A program made the position numbers and the translations under genes. This document shows, piece by piece, positions 1 to 54,655 of a stretch of DNA of 64,000 bases. The stretch's first letter is position 1. Each line of letters begins with the position of its first letter. Source of the DNA: Bacteroidota bacterium (GTDB lineage: Bacteria > Bacteroidota > Ignavibacteria > UBA10030); assembly GCA_025454835.1 (NCBI GenBank), contig JALONQ010000007.1, forward strand, positions 1-64,000. The letters run 5' to 3'. Below the pieces are notes generated by a model. The model made no database searches and was not told the origin of the DNA. It was given only the letters and a program-made list of their open reading frames with translations.

Positions 1-1353
1 CCAGACCGTGAACCAGGTCACGCCGAGGCCAACGAGCGCGCCCAGCCATGGGGACGGAAAGAACGCGGTCAGGAGAGGGCCCAAGCCCGTCAAAGCCAGG
101 ATCGGCCGCGTGAAATTGTTGATCGCCGCATACGCGACAAGCGGGTTCTGTCCCCCTTCGATCAGGATGCGAGACCCTCTTCGTACCTCAAACACATCGA
201 GCAGGATCCACAACCCCACCAGCACGTGGGTCGCCAGACCTCCTGTGAGTGCATAGTAACTCAGGGTCGAATGGTCCTTCTTGATCCCGCCTTCGAACGC
301 TTCGAGACAGAGGCCAACCACGAGCAGATACGAACCCAAGGTCACAACCCGTTGAACGGTCTGTTCCATGGCCGACCCAGGCCGACGGAAGATCCACCAG
401 AGCACCCCGACCGCGAAGAGCTCAACGAACAGGGTTCCGACGAGCCACCGCAGGTAGAGACCCACGACCGCGACGGCCGTCGTCGCGAACAGGAACGGGA
501 CCGCCGCCGCCCATGTCGCTTCCGACCAGGTGCGGACCTCCGACTCGTGACGTTTCTGCATCCAAGCCAGGACGTGGTCTCCCACGATGCTGCCGGGCAC
601 AACAATGAACAGATACTTCAGGAAGTCGAAACGGAACAACTCCGGGATCGGCGAGCTGTTCCACAGATCCTTGACCCAACCCTCAGTGCCTGTGGACAGC
701 CGAAGCGCCAGCAAGAGCCCCAGCACAGCCCAACGAACAAGATGAGATTCTCTCGTCGTCAGCCAGATCACGCCACCCGCCACAGCCATATTCGACAACA
801 CAAGGATGATGATGTCGCTCCGTCGCAGAAGGAATCCAGTCCCGTCGGGATACTCAACAAGGGCCATGAAGGTGATCGCCGCAAGCCAACCGAGTCCGCG
901 TACGAGTCGCTGACGAAGCGGTGACCATGACGCCGGGAGGGCGGCATACATCGGGAAGAGCAAGAAGAAGCCCCCGAGGGCCAGCCACCACGTGGCAGCG
1001 TCCGGCGACGAGCTCAGACGATAGGGACGGATGTGCTCATCGAACAACGCAAACGAAGCAAGCAGGAGGCCTCGAACGAATAAGGACCGCACGATCTTCC
1101 ATTCCGGTTCACCACGCGCGACGCGGCGATGCATCGCGAACGGAATCGCCCCGCCCATGGTGAAGAGAAAGAACGGAAACACGAGGTCGACCCAGGTGAT
1201 GCCCGGAATGTTCGGGACGAACGTGTGCGCTGGCGGAGGCACTTGGGCATGATACATCCAGGCGGGCAGAACGCCGAACGGAATGGCGCTCGAGAGGATC
1301 ATCAGAAAGATAGACCAGCCCCGAAGCGCATCGAGCGGTAGGAATCGTTGCAT
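1..1353 (-). CDS. DUF5009/heparan-N-acetyltransferase-like membrane protein (3' partial)
   Basis: This frame stays open from an ATG at 1353 to the window edge, giving 451 codons with the C-terminus missing. The N-terminus reads RFLPLDALRGWSIFLMI and is followed by a WVDLVFPFFLFTMGG segment, the signature of the DUF5009/COG4299 family related to lysosomal heparan-alpha-glucosaminide N-acetyltransferase and bacterial NagX. It is very hydrophobic, with roughly ten membrane segments. Family members are thought to move an acyl group across the inner membrane to a glycan, but the substrate here is unknown. GAGG seven bases before the ATG at 1353 favours that start over the ATG at 1359. The gene follows the HhH-barrel gene by 19 bases, so co-transcription is likely. 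Confidence 0.8.
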   Translation of the reverse strand, partial: MQRFLPLDALRGWSIFLMILSSAIPFGVLPAWMYHAQVPPPAHTFVPNIPGITWVDLVFPFFLFTMGGAIPFAMHRRVARGEPEWKIVRSLFVRGLLLASFALFDEHIRPYRLSSSPDAATWWLALGGFFLLFPMYAALPASWSPLRQRLVRGLGWLAAITFMALVEYPDGTGFLLRRSDIIILVLSNMAVAGGVIWLTTRESHLVRWAVLGLLLALRLSTGTEGWVKDLWNSSPIPELFRFDFLKYLFIVVPGSIVGDHVLAWMQKRHESEVRTWSEATWAAAVPFLFATTAVAVVGLYLRWLVGTLFVELFAVGVLWWIFRRPGSAMEQTVQRVVTLGSYLLVVGLCLEAFEGGIKKDHSTLSYYALTGGLATHVLVGLWILLDVFEVRRGSRILIEGGQNPLVAYAAINNFTRPILALTGLGPLLTAFFPSPWLGALVGLGVTWFTVW

Positions 1354-1372
1354 AGGCATGTCCTCGACGAAA

Positions 1373-3031
1373 TTATAGTTGAATTTCGACACGAATGCTC
1401 GACCGCACGGCTCCAGCTGGCCCATAGCGCCAGGCTATAGACGCTCCGAAGTCGACACCATGCATTGGCTGCCCTGTGGCGACCAATTGAAGCTGGGAGG
1501 ATCGCCCCGACAGCCGTTGCAGTCCGCTCAGGCTCGCAGGTCCCGGTCCCATGACCCAGAATCCTACGGAGGGATCGCCGTCGACACGCATCCACCGCAG
1601 ATCCATCGTCAGTACGGTCCCCTTCCAGCTCAGCGATGTCTGCGAGATCCGTCCCACGACACGCCCGCCCAGGAAATCGTTCTCGACACGCCGGGTCGTC
1701 GAAAGCTGCACCATAAGCCGCTGCGAGAGCTGTTGGCGGACCTGGCTCGTCCATCGCGTGGACCCGCTCCTGCCGGTACGTGAGGCCGCCCACTCTACTC
1801 CAACGTTCGTTCGGTCCGCGAGAACGGCCCGGCACCCGACACCGAAAGAGGACATCGCTTCCCACGATACGACATGGTCGTCAGTATCACTCTCTCTTCC
1901 CACATCGCCTACGAGATGGAAGCGCATGACCCGGCCGGGAGAGGTCCGAACGGCCATTGAGAATGCGTCCTCGAGAGTGGAGCGTCCTCCGGCCCTTGGA
2001 ACTCCGGCCGCTGGAACACCGCGAAGTCTCCGGAGAACCCACCGGATCTCGGTCTGACGCCCAACGCTCCGCCCGATGCTGGCCGTATGCGATGGTGTCG
2101 TGTTGGCGTACGCACCCTCAAGAGCGATCTGCCAGCTCGGGGAGCGATACGACATCCGAACGGCGGTCAGCCCCGAACCGATCATGCGCACACAATGGGT
2201 TTCAAGGCCATCGAACCACTCCTCACTCCAGGCAAGGATCGCCGTTCTCTCTGCGTTGTCCCGTTCTGTCATCGAGATCAGGATCGATCTCTCGACGCCC
2301 AACATCTCGAGAGAGAGACCACGGCGGGCTGCGCCCGCGTCGTACCCCGGATGAACCTTGATGTCCTCGTTCGAACGGCGGTCCCAGTCAGACGGCCGCA
2401 GCACGCTCGTTCTCCTGCCTGCGTCAAGCAATGACGAGCCGCTTCGCACGTTCAGGTCGCCGATACATAACGACCAGGCACCCGTTGGCGAAGGGATCCG
2501 CGCGAAGGTGAACCAAGATGGTTCGGGGGACCCCGTCCGACGGACCTCCCAACGAGAAGGATCCCGGCCGATGATGTCGGCCCGTTGTTCAAGCCGAACA
2601 TCCACTCGCTCACGTACAAACTCCGTGTGGCCTCTTTCGCGCTTGACCGTGGCCTGTGAACGGACGTGGGTCGTCACCGGATTCGAGGGCACACTGGCGC
2701 CCAACGTGACGTACGGAATCAGCCGTTCAACGGTTCCTGGCCGCACGCCATGCAACAGATCGACCGAACGCCACTCTGCGATCTTGCCCGACCTGACCGC
2801 CTGAACGATGATCGCGGCCTCTCGGCGATGCACGCCGGGGACCTGCAGGAGTTCCTCGACCGTCGCTGTTCGCAGGTCGATCGGTGAGCGTCGGAATCGT
2901 TCCAAGGACTCTTCCAGAGCGACCTGCTCAGCCCCCGAATCTCCGTCGTGGTCCAACTCGCTCGATTGTGTCCAGAGTAGCTCAGGGACGCAGATGAGAA
3001 CGATCATGACATATGATGAGATCCCCTGCAT
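1373..3031 (-). CDS. Secreted helix-hairpin-helix protein with C-terminal outer-membrane-barrel-like region
   Basis: The protein has 552 residues. The ATG at 3031 has a strong GGAGGTGACC site directly upstream, so longer frames are not used. A hydrophobic signal (residues 1-22) is followed by an acidic stretch and a tandem helix-hairpin-helix pair at about 53-109 (LLQVPGVHRREA, LLHGVRPGTVERL), as in ComEA-type DNA-binding proteins. The remaining 430 residues consist of alternating amphipathic strands ending in a hydrophobic last residue, which suggests a beta barrel. HhH domains bind the DNA backbone. An outer-membrane role in DNA binding or uptake is inference. The gene starts two bases after the stop of the upstream small outer-membrane protein (TGAccATG), so the two are translationally coupled. 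Confidence 0.7.
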   Translation of the reverse strand: MQGISSYVMIVLICVPELLWTQSSELDHDGDSGAEQVALEESLERFRRSPIDLRTATVEELLQVPGVHRREAAIIVQAVRSGKIAEWRSVDLLHGVRPGTVERLIPYVTLGASVPSNPVTTHVRSQATVKRERGHTEFVRERVDVRLEQRADIIGRDPSRWEVRRTGSPEPSWFTFARIPSPTGAWSLCIGDLNVRSGSSLLDAGRRTSVLRPSDWDRRSNEDIKVHPGYDAGAARRGLSLEMLGVERSILISMTERDNAERTAILAWSEEWFDGLETHCVRMIGSGLTAVRMSYRSPSWQIALEGAYANTTPSHTASIGRSVGRQTEIRWVLRRLRGVPAAGVPRAGGRSTLEDAFSMAVRTSPGRVMRFHLVGDVGRESDTDDHVVSWEAMSSFGVGCRAVLADRTNVGVEWAASRTGRSGSTRWTSQVRQQLSQRLMVQLSTTRRVENDFLGGRVVGRISQTSLSWKGTVLTMDLRWMRVDGDPSVGFWVMGPGPASLSGLQRLSGRSSQLQLVATGQPMHGVDFGASIAWRYGPAGAVRSSIRVEIQL

Positions 3032-3033
3032 GG

Positions 3034-3810
3034 TCACCTCCACACGCGACCCAACGTGACCCCGTGTGTCCAGCCAAGGATCGGATGCCACCGGACCGCC
3101 GTCAACAACTGCCACCAGCCCACGGTGATCTCGCATCCACCTCCAACAGAGCTCGTTCCGTCCGACCACGACAGAATGAACGACATCTCCTCGATCACCC
3201 TCACGCGCGTGCCCGTCTGGACCTCCAGACGCTCACCTTCGGCGACCTCCGCGATCGCCATGACCGCTTCCGAAAGTCTCACCTCTCCACCGACGATGAC
3301 GCGCATGCGATCGGCTGAGAACGGACGTCCTTCCTGGCCGCGCGCCGTCACCTGTATCCCCGTCGTCATCTGGTCCGATCGCAGCTGCACGCCGATCGCT
3401 CCCTCCCACTCCAGCAGCGGCGTGTAGCGCGGGAACGACCATCGACCGATCGTGCCGCCAACACCAAAGGCGAATCCCGAGACAAGTTCCACGCCCAATC
3501 CCGCTTTTCCCCGCAGGAAGCGGACTGGCCCTGCCTCCAACATCGACGCTGAGACCCCATAACCGTATCCGCCGCGGCCGACGGCCACTCCGGCAGCTCC
3601 GGACCGCAGCCCCCCCATGCCGTGGATCGACGGCACGACTGACAACGCGAACATGGAAGGCATCTCCCGAGCCAGCGACGCCGGCTGCCATGGACCAAGC
3701 GCGCTGGCCTCGCCGGCGGCTTCGCCCACTCCCGACCACGCCAGCCAGCCGGCATCCTCTTGGGCATGAGACAACGACACGATGACGATCGCACACCATG
3801 CGTACCGCAT
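3034..3810 (-). CDS. Hypothetical secreted/outer-membrane protein
   Basis: The protein has 258 residues and I do not recognise a family. The N-terminus MRYAWCAIVIVSLSHAQ is a clear signal peptide with cleavage around residue 16. The remainder is rich in Gly, Val and aromatic residues in short alternating strands, with glycine turns such as GVAVGRGGYGYG, as in small outer-membrane beta barrels. A GGGGGG/GGTGAG run precedes the ATG at 3810. It lies first in a unit with the HhH-barrel gene (two-base gap) and then the DUF5009 gene, and is divergent from the DUF4835 gene. A plausible role is as partner of the HhH-barrel protein, but that is inferred from position only. Confidence 0.6.
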   Translation of the reverse strand: MRYAWCAIVIVSLSHAQEDAGWLAWSGVGEAAGEASALGPWQPASLAREMPSMFALSVVPSIHGMGGLRSGAAGVAVGRGGYGYGVSASMLEAGPVRFLRGKAGLGVELVSGFAFGVGGTIGRWSFPRYTPLLEWEGAIGVQLRSDQMTTGIQVTARGQEGRPFSADRMRVIVGGEVRLSEAVMAIAEVAEGERLEVQTGTRVRVIEEMSFILSWSDGTSSVGGGCEITVGWWQLLTAVRWHPILGWTHGVTLGRVWR

Positions 3811-3812
3811 GC

Positions 3813-3841
3813 TTGCTCACCCCCCCTTCTTTGTCTATCTT
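3813..3841 (+). promoter_or_regulatory. Promoter of the DUF4835 gene (leaderless candidate)
   Basis: TTGCTC, 17-base spacer, TATCTT, followed by TG to give TATCTTTG, an exact TAnnTTTG box. The start codon GTG 3848 begins only six bases after the -10 box. Confidence 0.65.
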
Positions 3842-3847
3842 TGTTAT

Positions 3848-4768
3848 GTGATCCAACACACCCGCCCACGACTGCTCGCCGTCGCCCTGGCTTTGGTGCT
3901 GGCCTGGTCAACGACAGCCGCTCAGGAGCTTCGCTGTGACGTCACCGTGAACACGGAAGCGTTGCCGAGCGCCGTACGAGATCTGTTGCGCGACTTTGAA
4001 TCAGACGTCGAACGTTACCTCAATGGCACGCGCTACACCGACGAAGAGATGCTCGGAGACAGGATCACGTGCACGTTCGACATCTTCTTCCGTACCTCAC
4101 CGAGCGAGAACCGCTACACGGCCCAGGTCTTCATCGGCAGCCAGCGTACGGTGTACGCGAACAACGAGCCGACGCAACGGACGACGCCCGTGCTTCGGAT
4201 CATGGATGAGAAATGGGAGTTCATCTATGCGCCCGGCCAGCGGATGCGGTACGACGAGTTCTCGGCCGATCCACTGACGGACTTTCTGGACTTCTATGCG
4301 TACCTGATCATCGGCATGGACCTAGAGTCCTACGAGCCCGCATCAGGCGACCCCTCATTTCGAAAAGCCCTCAACATCTGTAACGGCGCCTCAGCCCTTT
4401 CAGTCGGGGCTGGCGAGTATCAGTTCGTGGCCGGAGCCTTCAGCCGATTCGGCATGGCCGAGGAGTTGACGAACGCCCGCTACGCTCCGATCCGCGAAGC
4501 CATCAACGTCTACCACATGGAAGGGCTCGATGAGCTCGCGACGAAGGAATTCGACGCCCTCGACGCCATGCTCCGCGCGATCGCCACGATCGATCGGGTG
4601 CGACAAGTGCAGAACCCGACGAGCGTTCTCGTGAAACAGTTCTTCAACGCGAAGAATCGCGAGATCGCCGACGCCTTTCAACGCTACCCCGACCCTTCTG
4701 TCTATGACCGGCTCGGCGAGTACGATCCCGAGCATCTCACGGTCTATCGCGAACGCGCCCCACGCTGA
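3848..4768 (+). CDS. DUF4835 family protein (PorD-like)
   Basis: The protein has 306 residues when started at the GTG at 3848: a signal peptide (LLAVALALVLAWSTTAAQ) and then the DUF4835 body. Recognisable family stretches are the beginning QELRCDVTVN, the FIGSQRTVY segment, and the DPLTDFLDFYAYLIIGMDLE motif. The family is widespread in Bacteroidota and has been linked to the type IX secretion apparatus under the name PorD. I treat that link as family knowledge, not as shown here. The frame is also open to ATGs at 3809 and 3782, but those would add a second odd hydrophobic stretch and run into the divergent gene. A promoter -10 box ends six bases before this GTG, which suggests a leaderless message. 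The 3' end overlaps the convergent cyclophilin gene by 25 bases. Confidence 0.78.
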   Translation: MIQHTRPRLLAVALALVLAWSTTAAQELRCDVTVNTEALPSAVRDLLRDFESDVERYLNGTRYTDEEMLGDRITCTFDIFFRTSPSENRYTAQVFIGSQRTVYANNEPTQRTTPVLRIMDEKWEFIYAPGQRMRYDEFSADPLTDFLDFYAYLIIGMDLESYEPASGDPSFRKALNICNGASALSVGAGEYQFVAGAFSRFGMAEELTNARYAPIREAINVYHMEGLDELATKEFDALDAMLRAIATIDRVRQVQNPTSVLVKQFFNAKNREIADAFQRYPDPSVYDRLGEYDPEHLTVYRERAPR

Positions 4769-6903
4769 GCGGCCGGAATGATCCGCACCTCGCGGATCAC
4801 GTCACCCACCTGCCATCGATCCACGGTCTCGATGCCTTGTCGAACGCGGGCAAAGATCGTGTACCGTCCATCCAGATGCGGAGTCGGAAGATGTGTGAAG
4901 AAGAACTGCGAGCCTTCGGTATCGCGGCCGGCGCTCGCCATACCGACAGAACCCCTCTCGTAGGCACGTGCCGTGACCTCTGTCCGCAGCGAATAGCCGG
5001 GCCCACCCCAGCCGTCACCTCTCGGATCTCCGCCTTGCACTACGAAATTCGGTACGACACGGTGAAAAGTCAAGCCATCAAAGAAACGCTTGCGTGCTAG
5101 ACGGACGAAGCTCAGCACGGTGAAGGGGGCCTCCTCCGGGAGCAGGTCCACCGTAACTTCACCGCGATCAGTGACGAAGACCGCTGAGCCTCCAAGCGAT
5201 CGGATGGTGTTCCAGTCGTAGTCGGTGTGATCGGGTCCGTCCGTTGGCACCGGCGCCACGATGTCGGTTCTTCCGGAAGCGCGCAGAGCGGCGACCGCCG
5301 CATCTACCACTGACCGGTCCGAGCTGAGGAGCATTCGTTCGACCGCTGACGAAGCCGCCACACCGCCGAACGCTCCCAACGCCTGGATCGTCGCCTGCAT
5401 GGCTTCCACGTCATCAGGAATACGCATCGTGGCGAGCGCCTCCGAGAGTGTTTCCACCGCGCGTTCTCGGTGGCCGCCGCTGTCGATCAGAGCGATGACC
5501 GACGAGTCGCCAAGCAGCGTCGCGACGACCGTGGAGATGCCCATGTCGCGCCTTCCAAGGGCCGCCTCGGCTTCGTCCGTCACAAAGCGGCTGAGTTCTT
5601 GCCGGCTCATGATCTCCGGCACGATCGCGCCGATCCCCGGCGCACGCAGGAAGCGCCGGGAATGGTCCCACGCCGCCATGGCAACCGAAGGAGTCGCGTC
5701 CTGCCAGGCGGACGATGTCGCTTTCCATCCGGACGCTGTCGGAGCCGTCGAAAACGCCTCGAGCGCTTTCGCCCTCAGACGAGGCTTGAGCAGGTTCCGC
5801 TCGACGAACGACTGCAGGTCTTCAATGTCCGAAGGACTGAAGCGTGCCAGAGCCACCATGGCCTCACCGGTCACCAGCGGTGCACGCGCCTCGCCGGCCG
5901 GGATCAGCGACCACAAGGCCGTGCGGATGGAATCGCGCACATCCATGCCGCGCATCGAAGGCGCATCGGCCGGCAACGCCATCGCCGAGGCGACTGCCAC
6001 ATGATCGTTCTCGTCCGTCAGGCCTCGGACGAGGATCCTGCCCATCGTCGGGTCCGAACGGAGCTGCGTTCCCGCCGACCGTACCACCTGCACCAACACC
6101 CTCCAATCGCGGTCTCGTCGCCTGAATTCGCGTCCCGCCAGTTTCGTCAGCACATCGCGCGCTTCGGGGACGTCGACCCGCGCCAGCATCGTCGCGAGAT
6201 TCAGCCGAACATCGGCTGACCGGTCGGCGACGAGCCGCTCGAAGACATCGCGATGCGAAGCCAGCTCTGTCGGGATGAGGGCGTGTGGAGAGGAACGGCC
6301 CAAGACGTACAATGCCCGCCAGCGGACCTCCGCGTCGCCGTCCTGAAGGCTCTTCGAGGCATACCAGATGATCTGAGGCTCCTTCAGCCCCTTGACGGCC
6401 GAACGCATCATGGCGATCAACACGTCCTGCCGGCGTGCACCCCGTTCATCCTTGGCCAAGGCCGCCAGCGAATCCACGTCATTGCGGGCGGCGATCCTGC
6501 CGAAGGCATCGAACATCGAGCGCCTGGCTGACGCATCGCCTTCCTTCATCGCCAAGCGCAGCAGCGACATCGCGTGCTGAGACGTCAGGCGTTGGCCCGC
6601 CGCAAAGGCCGCCATACCCCGCACCCCGGGATTTTCATCACGCACGCCTTCAAGGATCACTGACGCCGATCCGCTGTCGGACCGATGCGCCACAGCACGA
6701 AACGCGGCCTGCCTCGCCTCGGCGGCTGGCGAGCGGGTCAGCTCGACCAATCTGCCCCATCCGCCGACGCGTTGGTCCTGCCAATACCACGCTTCGCGCA
6801 CGACCGAATCCTGGGCCTGCGCTTGCAGCGCCGAGCTCGTCAGGCTGACACTCACAATGAGGAACCACAGAGAGGTTCGGACAGATCGCATGGTCATGAG
6901 CAT
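4744..6903 (-). CDS. Secreted HEAT-repeat protein with C-terminal cyclophilin peptidyl-prolyl isomerase domain
   Basis: The protein has 719 residues. A signal peptide (residues about 1-30, ending LQAQAQ) is followed by roughly 500 residues of alpha-helical HEAT-type repeats (for example NPGVRGMAAFAAGQRL). A cyclophilin domain occupies about 573-707, with FFDGLTFHRVVPNFVVQGGD and GSQFFFTHLPTPHLDGRYT, covering the conserved Arg-Phe-Gln active-site surroundings. The product probably acts in the periplasm as a prolyl isomerase with a helical scaffold for binding client proteins. Possible starts are 6903, 6897 and 6891, with no clear ribosome site to decide. It lies 28 bases after tatD and its 3' end overlaps the convergent DUF4835 gene. 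Confidence 0.9.
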   Translation of the reverse strand: MLMTMRSVRTSLWFLIVSVSLTSSALQAQAQDSVVREAWYWQDQRVGGWGRLVELTRSPAAEARQAAFRAVAHRSDSGSASVILEGVRDENPGVRGMAAFAAGQRLTSQHAMSLLRLAMKEGDASARRSMFDAFGRIAARNDVDSLAALAKDERGARRQDVLIAMMRSAVKGLKEPQIIWYASKSLQDGDAEVRWRALYVLGRSSPHALIPTELASHRDVFERLVADRSADVRLNLATMLARVDVPEARDVLTKLAGREFRRRDRDWRVLVQVVRSAGTQLRSDPTMGRILVRGLTDENDHVAVASAMALPADAPSMRGMDVRDSIRTALWSLIPAGEARAPLVTGEAMVALARFSPSDIEDLQSFVERNLLKPRLRAKALEAFSTAPTASGWKATSSAWQDATPSVAMAAWDHSRRFLRAPGIGAIVPEIMSRQELSRFVTDEAEAALGRRDMGISTVVATLLGDSSVIALIDSGGHRERAVETLSEALATMRIPDDVEAMQATIQALGAFGGVAASSAVERMLLSSDRSVVDAAVAALRASGRTDIVAPVPTDGPDHTDYDWNTIRSLGGSAVFVTDRGEVTVDLLPEEAPFTVLSFVRLARKRFFDGLTFHRVVPNFVVQGGDPRGDGWGGPGYSLRTEVTARAYERGSVGMASAGRDTEGSQFFFTHLPTPHLDGRYTIFARVRQGIETVDRWQVGDVIREVRIIPAAQRGARSR

Positions 6904-52318: not shown

Positions 52319-54655
52319 TCAATGTCCAGGTTGGCTCCAGGCCTCTCGACTCCAGCGACCGCCGTCCGTTGTGAACCACACCGCACCCGCTTCCATCGTC
52401 ATGGCGACATCGATGCGGCGATCACGGAGCTGCGAGATGCGATGCGGATCGGGGTGTCCGAACGAATTGCCCCGACCGACGGAAATGATGGCATGCTCCG
52501 GACGGACGGCGTCCAACCAGCGCGCCGACGTCCCCGTGTTGCTTCCATGGTGTGCCACCTTCAGCAGGTCCGACCGGACGAATCCGCCGTACCGCGACAG
52601 AACCTCTTCCTCCCCGTCGTCTTCCAGGTCACCGGTCAGCAGTATGGAGGCGCTGCCTGCCATCAGGCGGACCAGCACCGATCGATCGTTCGCCGAACGG
52701 CTGACGGGATCCGGCCCGGGATGAAGCACGTAGCAACGGACGGCCGGATCCAGCGTCAGGCGGTCACCTCGGCGGGCGATCCGTACCGTGACGCCCCTCG
52801 CCTTGGCCAGATGATGGACCTCAGGGCGGACGGCGGTGCTGTCGCACAACGTCAATGTACGCACCGGAAGATGGTCGAGCAACCGCGTCAGTCCGCCCGT
52901 ATGGTCGCGATGTCCGTGAGTGATGATCACTTCGTCCAGGGCGCGAATACCCAGTCGCTGCAGCAACGGGAGGATGGTCCTCTCAGAGGTGAACTCTGAC
53001 GGACCGGCATCGACGAGGGCCGTCGCCCCATGGAACGTGCGGATAAGGTGCGCATCCCCCTGGCCGACGTCGATCGTGATGATCTCCGCCAACGGTCGTC
53101 TTTCCGTCACCACCGGTCGCCACACAGCGACCACGGCGAGCAGACATCCAGCCATGACGAAGGTGCGCCGAACGCCCGGGAGCGAGCCTGCGGCCACGGC
53201 CGCCAGGAAGGAGTACAGCGCCGCCAGCGTCCATCCATCGGGCCTCACCGCTTCGACGGCGGCGAGCGGCAGCGAAGCCCCGACGCGGACCGAGCCGAGC
53301 AACAGGTCCATGAGCACGTCATTCACGCCGGCATACACCGAACCGATCCACGGCAGAACGGGCATGAAGAGCAATTCGACGACGCCGAGCACCAAGATCA
53401 CACCCGAAAGCGGTACGACCACCAGATTCGCGACGACCGACACCAGCGACACCTGGCCGAACACCGACATCGTCAAGGGCAGCGTGCCGATCTGCGCCGC
53501 CGCGGAAACGGCCAGCAACTGAACGGTCGCGCGAACGAACTCATGATCGTGAAACTCCTCAGGCAGTCGCCGCAGAAGCGGTTCCAGCATCGGCGAACCG
53601 ATCACGATCGCCAGGACCGAGATGAACGAAAGCTGAAATCCGACATCGAACAACGAGCGTGGATCGCGGAGGAACAGAATGATCGCCGCGATGGCCAGCG
53701 ATTGGAACACGTCAGCGCGGCGGCCTGCGACCCCGGCTGTCAGCACCACGATCGCCATCACACTCGCCCTCACGACCGACGGGCTCGACCCGGTGACCCA
53801 GAGATAGAACAGAATTCCCACGACGGCCATCCCAAAAGCCGCGCGCCTCCGCAGCCGCAACAGGCCGGCGACGACAAGCGCCACCAGCGCGATCAACGCC
53901 ACGTTCCCACCCGACACGGCAAGAATATGAACGGTCCCCGTGGCCAGGAAGGCATCCTTCAGATCTTCCCCCAACTCCGCCCGGTACCCCAGAATGACCC
54001 CCTTCAGAAAAGCCGCTCGTTCTCCGGCGTGCAGTTGGTCGATCCAGCCGTACAACACCGATTGCAGGACGCCCAGCCACGTTCGATGATCAAAACCGGG
54101 CGGCGCGTGCACGCGTGTGGCGGAACGTGCGCGGACCACGGCATCGATACCGGCGAGCGAAAGCATCGCGCCATAGTCCATTTCGCCAGGATTCCTCGGT
54201 CGAGGGAACGGCTCGACCGAGCCTGTCAGAAGCCATACGTCACCGGCGCGGGGCTCAGGGATGGGTTCTTTGTTGAACGGGCGGGGCATGCTCACCCGGC
54301 TCCGCACGATTTTTCTCCCACCGCACACCGTGTCCGGCATGTGAACGTCCGCGACAAACGTCCATGTTCGCTCATGCCGCGTCGGCGGATCGACGATCCG
54401 TGCTGTGAACGGAAGCAATGTGTTGGGGTCGGTTGGCGGCACCCGCGCGGCGGACCCAGACTCGAGAACGAGCGCATGCCACGACATGCCCGCGAACAAC
54501 AGACCTATGAGCAGGAAGGCGTCGGCGACAATGATGCTCTGACGGCGAATAGCCAGCGCGGCGGCGAAGCAGAGAACGAGGAGGGCGTACGAAAGGGGCG
54601 GCGGCCATCCGAGCGCGTCGGAGGCTGCGATCCCAGCGGCGAGCGCCAACGCCAT
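52319..54655 (-). CDS. comEC: ComEC/Rec2 family DNA-uptake channel protein
   Basis: The protein has 778 residues from the ATG at 54655. An N-terminal membrane and OB-like region (DUF4131) is followed by the competence core with many membrane segments ([67 protein letters not shown]). The C-terminal MBL domain (about 540-770) shows [28 protein letters not shown] and [12 protein letters not shown]. It imports single-stranded DNA across the inner membrane and its MBL domain may degrade the other strand. No other com or pilus gene is adjacent. Confidence 0.95.

Follow-up and report, generated by a model that had tools for sequence, protein, structure and literature searches.

We analysed a 64,000-nucleotide (nt) stretch of a Bacteroidota genome of the class Ignavibacteria (UBA10030; assembly GCA_025454835.1, contig JALONQ010000007.1, positions 1 to 64,000), hereafter the window. 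Near its beginning lie two adjacent genes, which we call U and H. H encodes a protein in which a ComEA-type helix-hairpin-helix (HhH) domain precedes a predicted outer-membrane barrel, and U, immediately upstream, encodes a smaller predicted barrel. Both genes are present where an initial annotation of this DNA had placed them. That annotation had also reported a gene for the DNA channel ComEC in the same window, which Pfam confirmed (Table 1). The start of H is likely the ATG at 3031 rather than the GTG of the longer open reading frame (ORF), because this ATG follows the TGA of U by 2 nt.

Table 1. Features of the window discussed in the text
Feature	Position	Strand	Remarks
H, HhH-barrel protein, 552 aa	1373..3031	-	start ATG 3031; longer GTG ORF to 3169 (598 aa)
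ComEA-type HhH domain of H (residues 51-110)	2702..2881	-	
Predicted outer-membrane barrel of H (residues 121-551, about 22-24 strands)	1379..2671	-	
U, 258 aa, predicted 14-strand FadL/PorV-like outer-membrane barrel	3034..3810	-	upstream partner of H
comEC, inner-membrane DNA channel	52319..54655	-	PF03772 205.1 bits, DUF4131, Lactamase_B; suggested functional partner
porD, type IX secretion system protein PorD (DUF4835)	3782..4768	+	NF052317 190.2 bits (cut-off 170); PF16119 196.5 bits
HEAT-repeat protein fused to cyclophilin-type peptidyl-prolyl isomerase	4744-6903	-	adjoins porD; then TatD
DUF5009 gene	1..1359	-	PF16401 244.9 bits; 13 nt downstream of H; runs off contig start; not claimed as system part

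The AlphaFold2 model of H, built on a 51-sequence alignment, consisted of helices at residues 33-104 followed by about 22-24 strands at residues 121-551. Its mean predicted local distance difference test (pLDDT) was 71.6 and its predicted template-modelling score (pTM) 0.71; blocks within residues 41-110 reached 79-93, and parts of the model fell below 50. In each of two structure searches, the 50 matches shown were all outer-membrane or mitochondrial barrels, and the Foldseek matches among those listed included MOMP, FimD, AlgE and others. Porins, VDAC, ushers and TonB receptors resembled the barrel alike (Z 12-14), with no preferred family. When the profile of the H family was compared with known structures, the HhH domain of human EEPD1 (9yi2) ranked first (E=4.8e-24), and ComEA (8dss, 'ComE operon protein 1') was matched at E=1.1e-15. 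HhH-like domains of PsbU and of protein K of the type II secretion system (T2SS) were matched as well; the barrel part of the profile gave no convincing structure-profile match. The model of U, based on 19 sequences, was a 14-strand barrel (pLDDT 86.3, pTM 0.79), and its structural neighbours were FadL (2r88_A, Z 26.5), PorV (8gl6_F, Z 25.3) and a chain of a Bacteroidota barrel assembly machinery (BAM) complex (9n2d_B, Z 23.5). The initial annotation had described H as an HhH domain fused to an outer-membrane barrel and U as a small outer-membrane protein, and had suggested structure prediction of both. At the level of predicted fold the two descriptions were borne out: residues 51-110 of H formed the HhH domain, the C-terminal region was a barrel and not the soluble fold that the annotation had named as a refutation, and U had a FadL-type fold. 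Two outer-membrane proteins, one of them with an HhH domain, therefore stand as a prediction from the models.

Among the proteins scanned, Pfam and NCBIfam gave no family for the barrel of H and none above cut-off for U. The HHH_3 match of the window H (residues 50-108) scored 19.2 bits, under the curated cut-off of 27. The homologues at loci L030, L076 and L080 passed that cut-off with 51.3, 66.1 and 34.1 bits, and the one at L085 failed with 17.8 (here and below, names such as f26, f38 and g189 are arbitrary family or genus labels, G denotes a genome and L a locus). Against the ComEA family TIGR01259 (cut-off 152.35 bits), the window H scored 13.4, and none of the four homologues scanned exceeded the cut-off, the best reaching 48.1. 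The secretin family PF00263 was absent from the Pfam matches of H at E<=1. Neither Pfam nor NCBIfam matched the window U at E<=1; this includes NF033709 (PorV/PorQ, cut-off 90 bits), which none of the five U proteins scanned passed, the best being that of L030. The profile of U did match the PorV structure 6h3i_F. Many U homologues retain an N-terminal NPA motif, which we take to be a likeness to the PorV/FadL family. Signal peptides were assessed by eye.

The U-H pair is conserved and widespread in Bacteroidota. With the window H alone as query, 14 of the 149 genomes of the class matched, its own included, and a contig scan with the same query confirmed no relative. The window copy is therefore a divergent member, and a profile was needed. 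We used a profile of 14 seeds from the window's class and counted H as present when the best E-value was below 1e-20, a threshold that we placed at a gap in the observed E-values. The H-positive genomes were counted manually, and a script re-added the sets for SprA and secretin used below. In the class, 148/149 genomes matched and 139/149 passed the threshold; the remaining ten had weak ComEA-type matches, apart from one without any. In a sample of 247 genomes of the phylum, 236 matched and 200 (81 percent) passed; 36 of the 47 H-negative genomes had weak ComEA-type matches and 11 had none. The named relatives among the best 80 of 159 came from Ignavibacteria, Melioribacter, Stygiobacter, Balneolaceae, Fodinibius and Rubricoccaceae, along with one KSB1 record. 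We read 124 loci outside family f26, comprising 44 diverse and 80 mainly ignavibacterial ones (short contigs, some of them repeats of one genome). U stood directly upstream of H in 23 of the former and 70 of the latter. At E<1e-25, U was found in none of the 47 H-negative genomes.

The initial annotation had suggested correlating presence and absence with comEC across genomes, and we found that H and ComEC co-occur. In the phylum sample, 200 genomes had both, none had H without ComEC, 43 had ComEC alone and 4 had neither. The four ComEC-negative genomes are all members of family f47. A second sample, 99 genomes from the order around this family, gave 64, 1, 15 and 19 for the same four classes, the sole genome with H and without ComEC (G349) being an assembly of about 530 contigs. 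Both proteins were missing from all 16 f47 genomes (G275, G307, G313, G339 and 12 more), and SprA was found in the four tested. In family f44, the two H-positive genomes had stronger ComEC matches (7.3e-54 and, by a narrow lead, 1.8e-48) than the 15 ComEC-positive, H-negative genomes (9.5e-48 to 2.4e-31). H is co-inherited with ComEC across both samples, as counted without correction for ancestry.

The gene order in family f26 is the strongest single fact for a link to competence. H was found in 51 of the 61 f26 genomes searched (E<=1e-20). The loci considered are those of the 30 best-scoring genomes together with G150 and G241; L085 and L228 repeat two of the 30. Among the 30 best-scoring loci, 27 have ComEC on the strand of H, starting between -12 and +63 nt relative to the H stop codon, and 26 have U upstream of H. 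Counting G150 and G241, ComEC abuts or overlaps H in 29 of 32 genomes from 14 genera. In G150 the two overlap by 9 nt, and neither SprA nor U was matched. Pfam confirmed the ComEC of L085, L226 and L197. The three exceptions (L207, L222, L225) belong to one genus, g189; at L225, H is followed by a glycerate kinase gene and then by a cut ORF that by eye resembles the start of ComEC and had no Pfam match. The distance in the window, 49 kb between comEC and H, is by itself weak evidence for such a link, and we did not accept it as such. On other single contigs the distance was in several cases hundreds of kb, so that we used distance for f26 only.

We propose that U and H form an outer-membrane module of the natural-competence machinery, that is, of DNA import, in Bacteroidota, and our confidence in this stands at about the midpoint. 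Incoming DNA would pass through, or dock at, the large barrel of H in the outer membrane. The ComEA-like domain of H would face the periplasm and more probably dock to, or gate toward, periplasmic partners than hold DNA, and U, as a small FadL/PorV-type barrel, would stand at the side of H in the way that PorV does with SprA. ComEC would then take single strands across the inner membrane. We infer the passage of DNA, the orientation of H, the partner role of U and the role of the HhH domain from the evidence that points to DNA uptake: the predicted folds, the co-inheritance, the f26 cluster, the H-positive genomes without a secretin match, and a neighbour in family f38. Of four f38 loci read, two, from genomes of a single genus, have a gene for NamZ beside H (DUF1343; L233 3831-5054 and L234 4310-5545), with Pfam scores of 279 and 281.8 bits; in Riemerella, transformation was reported to require a DUF1343 gene (PMC8459023). 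Taken together, this leaves a role of the pair in DNA uptake evenly poised. The initial annotation had suggested an outer-membrane device for DNA binding or uptake. Co-occurrence and the f26 cluster, both genome associations, speak for the competence part of that suggestion, and the DNA-binding part was not supported.

Several observations weigh against this proposal. To our knowledge, no phenotype is known. ComEC is retained by 43 of the 47 H-negative genomes. Outside f26, ComEC stood beside H in 0/124 loci. In family f30, 45 of 54 genomes were H-positive without U at E<1e-25. In G312, an f26 genome without H, a MerR-family gene lies directly before ComEC (L248, 8361-10852), and U and H are missing. 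In L085, U-H-ComEC likewise has a MerR-family gene in front of it; judging by gene order, the pair seems to have dropped out of this place while ComEC stayed. Both co-occurrence tests ignore ancestry; since they do, and since absence of ComEC is almost confined to f47, the independent losses are few and clustered in few lineages. Without f47, the order test was weaker (p=0.03). Nor were secretins rarer where H is present: PF00263 was matched in 120 of the 247 phylum genomes and not in 127, with 104/200 H-positive genomes having a match and 96/200 lacking one, as against 16/47 and 31/47 of the H-negative genomes. The window's own genome contains a secretin-domain gene (contig 25, 27428-27904; E=1.9e-23; open frame of 444 aa) and an ordinary ComEA in a 149-aa frame. 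We had also considered H as a stand-in for a missing secretin, and rejected this because these counts show no mutual exclusion.

The HhH hairpins add to these points. Backbone glycines of HhH hairpins contact DNA, and the initial annotation had named their loss in homologues as a refutation of its reading. To a large extent this loss is what we found. Among 51 H proteins, the hairpin glycines were kept in 15 and 4 (hairpin 1) and in 31 and 8 (hairpin 2), with a mean net charge of -1.1; the corresponding numbers for 20 soluble ComEA-type proteins of the phylum, hand-picked as controls from weak profile matches, were 9, 20, 20 and 19, with a mean net charge of +2.2. Conservation was weakest in the very family with the ComEC cluster: the 30 H proteins of f26 kept 0, 0, 20 and 1, and their mean charge was -3.8. 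The hairpins of the window H (PGVH and HGVR) retain the first glycine of each and have lost the second, and the net charge of its HhH part is +1. The HhH domain of H is thus probably not the DNA grip, judging by these residues. Because both the glycines and the positive charge are degenerate, it may rather serve as a docking or gating domain.

The same degenerate, on average negatively charged hairpins would suit the main rival explanation, which we regard as possible, if rather unlikely. According to it, U and H serve as a general transporter or assembly factor of the outer membrane with no role in DNA handling, the HhH domain is a module for protein contacts, and the ComEC cluster of f26 is a chance product of operon formation that was then inherited. 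The matches of the H profile to T2SS protein K and PsbU fit such a module, and the retention of ComEC by most H-negative genomes and its adjacency to H in f26 alone point in the same direction. Other neighbours of H vary: at L086, L229, L231 and L232, genes for SusC-like TonB receptors lie 109-208 nt downstream (checked with Pfam at L229 and L232). Against this explanation, none of the 200 H-positive phylum genomes lacks ComEC and f47 lacks both, and in f26 the genes for H and ComEC overlap or adjoin each other in 29 of 32 genomes from 14 genera.

A further explanation makes the pair an accessory of the type IX secretion system (T9SS), with U a relative of PorV, H its companion barrel and porD next door. 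The gene porD does lie upstream of H on the opposite strand in 85 of the 124 loci outside f26 (20/44 diverse, 65/80 mainly ignavibacterial), and U is like PorV in fold (Z 25.3 with 8gl6_F) and weakly so in sequence (at best 75.4 of the 90 bits required by NF033709; 6h3i_F at E=1.8e-6). However, porD adjoins H in 0/34 f26 loci, and the distribution of SprA runs the other way. Taking the complement of 190 listed positives as SprA-negative, we counted 143 genomes with both H and SprA, 57 with H alone, 47 with SprA alone and none with neither. U was likewise absent from all 47 H-negative genomes even though all are SprA-positive, so U tracks H and not SprA. We consider an accessory role improbable. 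A core role of H in the T9SS was rejected on presence and absence: H occurs in every one of the 57 genomes without SprA, and SprA in every one of the 47 without H. The distribution of ComEC agrees better with that of H.

Least probable by far, and in our view hardly tenable, is that H is an outer-membrane-anchored ComEA gripping double-stranded DNA through its hairpins: the HhH part is ComEA-like in sequence and fold, and the window copy has its one glycine per hairpin and a net charge of +1, but the glycines are gone in most homologues and the mean charge is negative, unlike in the 20 soluble controls, the hairpins are most degenerate in f26, and the window's own genome has a regular ComEA.

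How, then, does a competence module of U and H compare with systems already described? ComEA is small, periplasmic or membrane-tethered, and has no barrel. H shares with it the HhH fold, a recognisable sequence (8dss) and the genome association with ComEC; unlike ComEA, H has 552 residues, of which about 430 form the predicted barrel, and mostly lacks the hairpin glycines. U has the 14-strand fold of the PorV/FadL family, which the BAM-complex chain has too; unlike PorV and PorQ, it stays under the NCBIfam cut-off in the five proteins scanned and follows H instead of SprA. With a PilQ-type secretin as DNA port, H would share the proposed role in the outer membrane; unlike it, H is a predicted single-chain barrel without PF00263, and 96/200 H-positive genomes have no PF00263 match. 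The combination of a large barrel with a FadL-type side partner may be likened to the SprA-PorV translocon (PMC10994853), though the presence pattern of SprA is opposite to that of H. A further parallel comes from the transformation genes of Riemerella anatipestifer (PMC8459023), which encode an HhH protein (RA0C_RS02645), an outer-membrane protein (RA0C_RS04915) and a DUF1343 protein, each reported as essential, and ComEC. Unlike in H, the HhH protein, predicted to be periplasmic, and the outer-membrane protein are encoded there by separate genes, and RA0C_RS04915 was reported only from Flavobacteriaceae. In the open-licence papers searched, we found no description of an HhH-barrel protein or of the U-H pair, and we regard the pair as a putative competence-associated outer-membrane module whose architecture we did not find described. 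A more specific version of this proposal is that U and H are a secretin-independent port for DNA, a two-barrel translocon on the SprA-PorV plan that would hand DNA to ComEC in most of Bacteroidota. We put this forward tentatively and think it doubtful as it stands.

Of the other genes around the pair, porD is divergent from U, and its ORF start overlaps U; the real start of porD is probably further inside the ORF. In the ComEC loci of eight H-negative genomes, read by eye, no replacement outer-membrane gene was recognised beside comEC. Where the window has the HEAT-repeat/cyclophilin fusion, the loci L025, L028, L027 and L091 have mutually similar genes of 647-724 aa clustered together. Their kinship to the fusion gene is judged from place, and for L025 and L028 also by eye.

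Overall, 243 of the 247 phylum genomes carry comEC and 127 have no secretin match, so that the route across the outer membrane is open to question in many of them. The U-H pair is a concrete, experimentally testable candidate for the passage of DNA through this membrane, because H is found in 81 percent of the sample, always together with ComEC there, and lies directly beside comEC in one family. If the proposal is wrong, there is still an outer-membrane family, large, conserved and unnamed, in need of a function. If it is true, bacteria of a large phylum would acquire genes through an entry port for which we found no description.

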